From Methanosarcina sp. KYL-1 (lineage in GTDB: Archaea; Halobacteriota; Methanosarcinia; Methanosarcinales; Methanosarcinaceae): 64,000 nt of DNA. Positions 54,230 to 56,922 of this stretch are shown here, piece after piece. The DNA is taken from the NCBI RefSeq assembly GCF_024372725.1, contig NZ_VOUA01000002.1, positions 271,039 to 335,038 of the forward strand, read 5' to 3'. Numbering within the stretch: the first letter of the stretch is position 1; every line of letters starts with the position of its first letter. A program made the translations under genes and the position numbers. The notes under the pieces are model-generated. The model had not been told where the DNA came from. It worked only from the letters and a program-made list of their open reading frames with translations, and did no database searches.

Positions 54230-54324
54230 GCTGTGTTTGTTCTCTGATTCCGCGATATTACCACCCCTTCAAACCCTCAGAATCTTAATTTACTTCCACT
54301 TATCTCCTTTTCAGTTACTCTCCC

Positions 54325-54464
54325 CAACTTACCTTCCTTTCACTTGATTTCCCAACTTACCTTCCCTTCACTTGATTTCCCAACTTACCTTCCCTTCACT
54401 TGATTTCCCAACTTGCCTTCCCTTCACTTATTCTCCCCAATTTACCTTCCTTTCACGTATTCTC
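54325..54464. repeat. 28-bp tandem repeat (five copies)
   Basis: Units based on CAACTTACCTTCCCTTCACT plus TGATTTCC begin at 54325, 54353, 54381, 54409 and 54437, the first three nearly identical and the last two drifting. The array lies between the cytochrome gene and the 50-residue membrane protein and overlaps that gene's last few codons. Confidence 0.9.
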
Positions 54465-54605
54465 CTCACTTATCTTCTCGTCACCTTTTCTCTTTTCCCG
54501 GTATTTCCCTGCCTTTTGGGCGTACTTCTTAAAAATACGGGCCCATGCGTAAACCAGCAAAAGAAATGTAAGGAGCTTTTTCAGTTTGAAAATTATACCC
54601 AGCAT
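54453..54605 (-). CDS. 50-residue single-helix membrane protein after copB
   Basis: A small frame starting ATG 54605, five bases after the copB stop. GGTGATC, a near-perfect match to the 16S anti-SD, lies just ahead of it and overlaps the copB end. The product starts MLGIIFKLKKLLTFLLLVYA and ends in a very basic then acidic tail (KYREKRKGDEKISEENT). One membrane helix with a cytoplasmic tail is predicted. It could be a small regulator or partner of the ATPase; no family is recognised. Confidence 0.6.
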   Translation of the reverse strand: MLGIIFKLKKLLTFLLLVYAWARIFKKYAQKAGKYREKRKGDEKISEENT

Positions 54606-54609
54606 CCGA

Positions 54610-56784
54610 TCACCCCATCTTCAGTGCCCTTGCGTTTATGGACACTATCACCGTGCTAAGGCTCATGAGCACCGCCCCTGCAGCCGGGCTGAGCAGGATT
54701 CCGTATCCGTAGAGGACCCCAGCTGCGAGGGGGATTGCAAAAACGTTGTACCCGGTTGCCCAGAGGAGGTTCTGGAACATCTTGGAATAGGTCTTTTTTG
54801 AGAGCATTATAATGTCCAGCACATCCCCGGGGTCATTCCTGACCAGGACGATGTCGGCGGTCTCGATAGCAACGTCCGTCCCGGCTCCTATCGCGATTCC
54901 CACATCAGCCTGCGCAAGGGCAGGGGCGTCGTTGACCCCGTCCCCGACCATCCCGGTGATGTAGTGCTTCTGCACCTCCTTTACTTTAGCTGCTTTTTCA
55001 TGGGGAAGCACTTCGGCAAAGTAGTCGTCAAGCTCCAGCTCCTCTGCTACCCAGGCAGCCACATAGCGGTTGTCCCCGGTAAGCATCAGGCACTTTATGC
55101 CCATGGACTTCAGCTTTGAGACAGCTTCCCTCGACTCTTTTCGGACCATGTCGGCAAGCGCAAGGGCTCCGAGCACCTTTTTCCCTTCAAGCAGGAAGAC
55201 AACGGTTTTTCCCTGCTCCTTGATTATTCCAATTTCGGCTGCCTCAAGCCGGATTCCTTCCTCTTCCAGGTAGCCAGGGCTTACGACCAGAAGCTTTTTT
55301 CCTTCCACAAGCCCCTCTACCCCTTTTCCGGGAATGGAACTGAACCCCTCAACAGGCAGGGTTTTCAGCCCCTTTTCCCTGGCGGTATCCAGGATTCCCG
55401 CTGCAATCGGATGTTCCGAACTGGCTTCCAGGGAAGCTGCAAGGCTGAGGATTTTGCCATTATCTTCTCCTGAAACCGAAACTATATCCGTGACCCCGAA
55501 CCTGCCTTCCGTGAGAGTCCCGGTCTTGTCAAAGATCACGGCTTCAAGGTTCCGCGCCCGCTCAAACGCCTGCCTGTCCCGGATAAGGAGCCCGGACTTT
55601 GCGGCAAGGGACGTGGAAACCGCAACCACGAGAGGAATTGCAAGCCCGAGGGCGTGCGGGCAGGTGATGACCATTACCGTAACCGCCCTTTCCAGGGCAA
55701 AAACGAATTCCTGCCCGAAGAAAAGCCAGGCAGCCAGCGTGATTATGCCCACACTCACTGCGATTATTGTCAGGTAGAGCGCAGCCCTGTTTGCAAGGTC
55801 CTGGGTTTTTGATTTGCTTTCCTGGGCTGTCCTTACGAGTTCGATGACCTGGCTCAGGTAGGTGTCTTTCCCGGTTTTTTTGACCTCCGCCACGAAAGCC
55901 GCCTCCCCGTTAAGGGAGCCGCCAATGACTTCGTCTCCGGGTTTTTTGGTGACGGGTTTTGACTCTCCCGTAAGCATGGCTTCGTTTACGCTGCTCGTCC
56001 CCCCGGAAACCGTCCCGTCCACAGGCACCTTTTCCCCGGGCTTGACCAGCACCAGGTCCCCTATTTTCAGCCTGGCCACCTCAACGTCAACTGTCTCCCC
56101 ATTTTTTTTCAGGTGGGCAACCGACGGCATGATCTTCACGAGTTCCTCAAGCGCCCTTGAAGCCCCCATCACGGAACGCATCTCAAGCCAGTGCCCCAGG
56201 AGCATCACGTCTATCAGGGTCACAAGTTCCCAGAAAAAGACCTTCCCCTGCAGCCCGAAGACCACAGCCGAACTGTAAAAATAAGCCACCGTGATTGCAA
56301 TCGCAATCAGGGTCATCATACCAGGCGTTTTTTCTGCAAACTCGTCTTTCATCCCCTTGAGAAACGGGTAGCCGCCGTAGAAATAAACAACAGAAGACAG
56401 CAGGAAGAGCAGGATATTGGAACCAGGGAAACGGAATTCAAAGCCCAAAAAACCCTGGATTGCCGGAGAAAGCACCAGGACAGGGATGGTCAGGATAAAA
56501 GAAACAATGAACCTTTTCCTGAAATCTGCGAGCATATGGGCATGATGGCTACTGTGCCCCTTTCCATGAGACGGGCCGTGCCCTTCGTGCTCATCTTCAT
56601 GCGCCCCCCCATGTTCTTTATGAGCAGACCCATGCCCTTCATGCTGCCCTTCTTCATGAGCTTTATGAGCAGATCCATGCCCCTCATGCTGTTCTTCTTT
56701 ACGGGTTACATGAGCCGGACTGTGCTCTTCATTCTGAGTTTCCTTATGTGCTCCATGAGCGGCTTTATTTCCCTCATTTTGCAC
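54610..56784 (-). CDS. copB: Copper-exporting P1B-type ATPase, CopB group
   Basis: A 724-residue transporter from GTG 56784. Residues 1-85 are a histidine-rich tail with HEGHGSAHK-type repeats that would bind copper. The membrane core has TITCPHALG-type CPH at 375-377, which marks the CopB (P1B-3) group. DKTGTLTEG at 419-427 is the phosphorylation site; TGES, SEHPIAAGI and GDGVNDAPAL are also present. GTG 56784 has no ribosome site. The frame continues upstream through a single TAG (56794-56796) to ATG 56883, which has one. The true protein may therefore be longer (see the next entry). Confidence 0.93.
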   Translation of the reverse strand: MQNEGNKAAHGAHKETQNEEHSPAHVTRKEEQHEGHGSAHKAHEEGQHEGHGSAHKEHGGAHEDEHEGHGPSHGKGHSSHHAHMLADFRKRFIVSFILTIPVLVLSPAIQGFLGFEFRFPGSNILLFLLSSVVYFYGGYPFLKGMKDEFAEKTPGMMTLIAIAITVAYFYSSAVVFGLQGKVFFWELVTLIDVMLLGHWLEMRSVMGASRALEELVKIMPSVAHLKKNGETVDVEVARLKIGDLVLVKPGEKVPVDGTVSGGTSSVNEAMLTGESKPVTKKPGDEVIGGSLNGEAAFVAEVKKTGKDTYLSQVIELVRTAQESKSKTQDLANRAALYLTIIAVSVGIITLAAWLFFGQEFVFALERAVTVMVITCPHALGLAIPLVVAVSTSLAAKSGLLIRDRQAFERARNLEAVIFDKTGTLTEGRFGVTDIVSVSGEDNGKILSLAASLEASSEHPIAAGILDTAREKGLKTLPVEGFSSIPGKGVEGLVEGKKLLVVSPGYLEEEGIRLEAAEIGIIKEQGKTVVFLLEGKKVLGALALADMVRKESREAVSKLKSMGIKCLMLTGDNRYVAAWVAEELELDDYFAEVLPHEKAAKVKEVQKHYITGMVGDGVNDAPALAQADVGIAIGAGTDVAIETADIVLVRNDPGDVLDIIMLSKKTYSKMFQNLLWATGYNVFAIPLAAGVLYGYGILLSPAAGAVLMSLSTVIVSINARALKMG

Positions 56785-56883
56785 GTCGCCGGTCTATTTA
56801 TGGGCCTGACCAGGGCTTTCCTGCTGCTCATTCACTTCATTAGTATGGAAATCAGGACCCTCTACTCCCTTCTCAGCCTGCAT
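56785..56883 (-). CDS. Upstream in-frame extension of copB across an amber codon
   Basis: Twenty-nine codons from ATG 56883 (starting MQAEKGVEGPDFHTNEVNEQ, ending QAHK) run to TAG at 56796-56794, then ACC GGC GAC leads in frame to the copB GTG. GAGAGGGG (56894-56901) is well placed before the ATG. In Methanosarcina TAG can be read as pyrrolysine, so this may be the true CopB N-terminus. The alternative is a short leader peptide ended by TAG, with copB started afresh at GTG. Confidence 0.5.
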
Positions 56884-56922
56884 ACTTTGCTGTCCCCTCT
56901 CGATTTTAATTTAAAATACCGA

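Follow-up and report, generated by a model that had tools for sequence, protein, structure and literature searches.

A lineage-specific in-frame amber codon in the leader of a Methanosarcina copB gene is probably neutral and ambiguously read

A frame encoding a CopB-type metal P-type ATPase lies on the minus strand (54610..56784) of the 64,000-nucleotide stretch of Methanosarcina sp. KYL-1 DNA analysed here, hereafter called the window. The frame comprises 724 codons when counted from a GTG and ends with a TGA stop codon (54612-54610), and its product carries both the E1-E2 ATPase domain (PF00122, 178.5 bits) and the hydrolase domain (PF00702, 114.1 bits). CopB-type P1B ATPases are defined by a CPH membrane motif and a His-rich N-terminus, and both are seen in the translated protein (TCPHALGLAIP and a His-rich N-terminal stretch). 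We take the CopB-type class of Methanosarcina copper ATPases to be the CPH, P1B-3 class, and the copB product is predicted from its sequence to be a copper pump. Upstream of copB on the same strand is a frame for a small YgaP-like_TM membrane protein (PF11127; 56926..57132), whose family match begins at almost the first residues with no ATG seen ahead of it. A cytochrome c-like open reading frame (PF00034; 53648-54229, minus strand) is located two frames downstream of copB, and a tandem repeat of 28/56 bp (54310-54492; minus strand AAGTGAAGGGAAGGTAAGTTGGGAAATC) lies between the two genes.

A sequence-only reading of this locus had proposed that the GTG (56782..56784, minus strand) has no ribosome site, and that 29 codons beginning with an upstream ATG (56881..56883) run in frame across one TAG into copB. 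Both descriptions were borne out. Pairing with the anti-Shine-Dalgarno sequence at the 3' end of the 16S rRNA gives the ATG a duplex energy of -6.7 kcal/mol, whereas that of the GTG, -1.7 kcal/mol, is weaker than the median of 2000 random sites in the window (median -2.9, 10th percentile -6.5). A ribosome-binding-like stretch of the AGGGG type (GAGAGGGG, 56894..56901, minus strand) precedes the ATG, and AGGGG occurs near the same place in many relatives. The 29-codon leader (56797..56883) is followed at codon 30 by the TAG (56794..56796), which is likely to be read as pyrrolysine or as a stop, and then by three codons (9 nt) before the GTG. Of the in-frame codons at which translation could restart beyond the TAG, this GTG alone would keep the His-rich tail; the region before the membrane domain has 22 histidines, and 20 of them lie between the GTG and the MLADF sequence. 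One further start codon, ATG 56535, is in frame before the membrane domain, but it would lose this tail and is likewise without a ribosome site (duplex energy +0.6 kcal/mol).

In most relatives, translation and alignment indicate that the region corresponding to the leader forms the N-terminus of CopB itself. The leader (MQAEKGVEGPDFHTNEVNEQ) can be compared with the typical start of these proteins, MQAEEKGVDT...VNEPS, which is continuous with the His-rich tail. When the first 81 nt from ATG 56883 were aligned with 23 relatives' starts, the mean score was 42.1 (background 20.2, sd 5.5), a value matched by none of the 1902 other ATGs in the window. The margin at the DNA level is narrow, since the highest background ATG scored 40.6 and the best single pairs scored 57.5 versus 56.5. 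The gap is wider at the protein level, where the leader scored 21.8 and no background stretch exceeded 14.5. The 5' flank of the ATG (TTAAAATCGAGAGGGG...ATGCAGGCTGA) also resembles the relatives' flanks by eye. However, a profile HMM built from the same 23 starts did not include the copB leader among its matches, and thus the resemblance is confined to the opening codons, a VNE block and the 5' flank.

This HMM result is what favours regarding the upstream ATG frame as a chance open reading frame, with GTG 56784 as the true old start. Despite this miss and the narrow DNA margin, we reject that explanation as having almost no chance of being correct, because none of the other ATGs, out of 1903 in the window, scores as well in either the DNA or the protein alignment, and its 5' flank is alike. 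A TAG is the first upstream in-frame stop for 11 of 52 greedily chosen window frames of at least 120 amino acids, yet copB is the only one of these with an ATG-led stretch of at least 20 codons ahead of such a TAG. Homologous coding sequence therefore flanks the in-frame TAG of copB on both sides, and unrelated, non-coding sequence upstream of the GTG, which would have spoken against a readable amber, was not found.

Besides that of the window, 30 copB loci (L002-L023, L028-L030, L047, L051, L058, L126 and L127) were compared; each belongs to a genome of the genus or to a record titled Methanosarcina, apart from L051, whose record is titled Methanosarcinaceae archaeon. Duplicate records of contigs already represented were left out (L042-L046, L048-L050 and L052, with L128 equivalent to L058), as were loci of other genera or phyla (L024-L027, L053-L057 and L059-L121) and, in genome G002, a paralogue with 44% identity. 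That paralogue aside, CopB homologues of the genus are 74-83% identical over the matched part. For each locus, the sequence ahead of the membrane domain was translated, and any TAG was displayed as O. In 24 of the 30, an MQAE-like start is in frame with the membrane domain with no stop between, including at the position of the TAG, although one of these intact leaders (L023) belongs to a gene with a frameshift further on within the pump. A TAG in the leader was found in none of the 30 loci, and five database proteins (P0002-P0006) begin with MQA or MLA and continue uninterrupted with no amber. L023 (genome G019) and the second copB copy of genome G024 (L058, L128) each show one TAG, which was considered and rejected as an in-frame amber, since in each case it lies on the out-of-frame side of a frameshift in the pump.

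The leader is broken in the remaining six loci by frameshift, start loss or truncation. For example, a frameshifted leader in L005 ends in a TGA that overlaps an in-frame ATG (ATGA; duplex energy -7.0 kcal/mol), and in L010, also frameshifted, the TGA that closes the leader follows shortly after an in-frame ATG (-4.0 kcal/mol). In L011 (genome G026), expansion of a GGGAA repeat places the leader ATG out of frame, and the leader ends in a TAA; the pump frame has an in-frame ATG upstream of this TAA, directly behind a purine-rich run (-7.3 kcal/mol). The leader start is lost in L003 and out of frame in L126, and in L058, near a contig end, the first codons are replaced. The genomes of L005, L010 and L011 are each a single contig, whereas those of L003, L058 and L126 are fragmented drafts that could hold errors. 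These breaks suggest, from sequence comparison, that the pump can do without its leader and that the leader is expendable.

When 34 pump cores were placed on a tree, the copB of the window branched outside every other sequence save two, namely L051, which is intact, and the outgroup L024. The lesioned L003, L005, L010 and L011 group with intact loci (L058 and L126 were not included). Given this placement and the intact leaders, it is simplest to suppose that the open leader is the ancestral state and that the amber arose on the branch leading to the window's lineage.

The genome has the means to read UAG as pyrrolysine. The pylT gene (anticodon CTA; L122:12525-12596) resides on contig C47 together with genes for PylS, PylB, PylC and PylD, all of which score above NCBIfam curated cut-offs. 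Thus the prediction that these genes would be present holds, although the Pfam profile PF21360, used by itself, gave no match. PylS exceeds its cut-off in 26 of 30 genomes of the genus, this one included, and mtmB in the same genome carries an in-frame TAG. UAG also serves as an ordinary stop codon: a TAG closes 4 of the 52 window frames of at least 120 amino acids, of which three encode Pfam domains of nearly full length (FilR1 in two, LCM in the third), and pylB itself ends in TAG. These genes rule out complete reassignment of UAG to sense.

Separately, among the 25 genomes of the genus holding both copB and pylS, 15 have the two genes within 25 kb of each other on the same contig (G014, G015, G006, G021, G008, G022, G002, G007, G029, G005, G016, G027, G028, G001 and G023). 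This closeness also holds in genomes without a copB amber. In the genome of the window, the two genes are on separate contigs, with copB on C2 and pylS on the 16.5-kb C47.

We propose that the copB TAG is a lineage-specific neutral amber that is read ambiguously, partly as pyrrolysine and partly as termination, and we assign this reading a probability of roughly 0.6. Ribosomes would start at ATG 56883 and meet UAG at codon 30, where by analogy a fraction of the CopB chains would gain pyrrolysine and the remainder would terminate. The analogy is with uidA in M. acetivorans, in which an introduced amber reportedly gave mostly terminated product, with full-length protein carrying pyrrolysine at an apparent 20-30% (PMC2933860). 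After the 9-nt gap, terminated ribosomes may restart at GTG 56784, which would yield a pump that is shortened by 33 residues but retains its His-rich tail. A pyrrolysine at residue 30, ahead of 20 of the 22 histidines before the membrane domain, is predicted to have no special role. Because the lesions in relatives indicate that the leader is expendable, neither reading of UAG would need selection. We infer both the neutrality of the amber and the reading of UAG itself.

The same expendability means that termination and restart alone could suffice. In a plain nonsense mutation, UAG would only stop translation, CopB would arise by restart or independent initiation at GTG 56784, and pyrrolysine would play no meaningful part. 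The restart-type layouts of L005, L010 and L011 and the location of the GTG just 9 nt after the TAG are consistent with this possibility. However, the GTG is weak (-1.7 kcal/mol, poorer than the random median of -2.9) compared with the relatives' restarts (-4.0 to -7.3 kcal/mol), and ambers that lack a special context are reported to be partly read in M. acetivorans (PMC2933860). We therefore consider a plain nonsense mutation possible but rather unlikely. An assembly or sequencing error at one base is improbable to a greater degree. The amber is known from one genome only, with a protein search for near-identical CopB returning just the window's own record and no second strain; but the contig is 335 kb long in a genome that is 99.74% complete, the frame is open on both sides of the TAG, and the rest of the gene is unbroken.

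The sequence-only reading had gone further, suggesting that pyrrolysine might serve the His-rich tail or that the amber might tune CopB output. A selected use of this kind, in which full-length CopB depends on pyrrolysine supply or the residue handles metal, could draw on the presence of the pyl genes and on the closeness of copB to pylS in 15 of 25 genomes, which could allow joint regulation. Neither service to the tail nor tuning is supported by the data. The leader TAG is absent from all 30 relatives' loci, and no RNA structure signal lies behind the TAG of the window: a PYLIS-like element was sought after the TAG and rejected, with nothing outstanding found (z -0.86; 36 of 200 shuffles fold as well). 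Downstream RNA structure is, for its part, reported as unneeded for the reading of UAG (PMC2933860). In addition, 6 of the 30 leaders are broken by lesions that are unable to encode pyrrolysine (three of the six from fragmented drafts). Furthermore, loss of UAG decoding in M. acetivorans reportedly costs only methylamine use (PMC2933860), where copB may or may not bear an amber. TAG conservation, RNA structure and the distribution of histidines hold no sign of a selected role or of tuning. Selected use is thus very unlikely, and we give marginally less credence still to its regulatory form, in which full-length CopB, bearing pyrrolysine before its metal-binding tail, would be made only with plentiful charged tRNA-Pyl, so that copper export would track growth on methylamines. 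The earlier interpretation as a whole is partly supported.

The neutral, ambiguous reading has a parallel in Thg1 (tRNA-His guanylyltransferase) of M. acetivorans. Like copB, Thg1 is no methyltransferase gene, and its in-frame amber is confined to a single species; this amber is described as readable as pyrrolysine, dispensable, and not needed for activity (PMC2933860). Read-through of Thg1 was tested by others, whereas that of copB is predicted here from sequence. Unlike that of Thg1, the copB amber sits in a poorly conserved leader, such that the pump may still work even where translation terminates. In the genome of the window, Thg1 has no stop inside the matched domain. Elsewhere, the draft genome of a relative has a Thg1 match with one internal TAG in a short, 69-residue frame (G017:C475:2062-2241).

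MtmB shares with copB the genome, the codon and the pyl machinery. However, the mtmB amber recurs across the genus and its pyrrolysine is reported in the active site (PMC8211752), whereas the copB amber occurs in one lineage and in a tail. Other Methanosarcina CopB-type ATPases have the same His-rich tail and TCPH motif without the leader TAG. In M. acetivorans, transposases, a TetR regulator and a methylcobamide:CoM methylase are listed with in-frame ambers (PMC1914089); like copB, these fall outside the three methylamine methyltransferases, but they belong to other families, and PMC1914089 calls the pyrrolysine in the TetR protein unclear. No copB amber was found in the titles and abstract openings of the literature searched, and the words copper and ATPase are absent from the main texts of PMC3639795 and PMC1914089.

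If this reading is true, copB would join the genes beyond methylamine metabolism in which an amber is tolerated, with the double meaning of UAG in Methanosarcina as the reason for that tolerance. The genus also offers a natural comparison, in which the leader is broken elsewhere by lesions that pyrrolysine cannot rescue and once by UAG. Because the same leader is broken in both ways, the copB leader would be a clean reporter for the reading of UAG outside dedicated genes.
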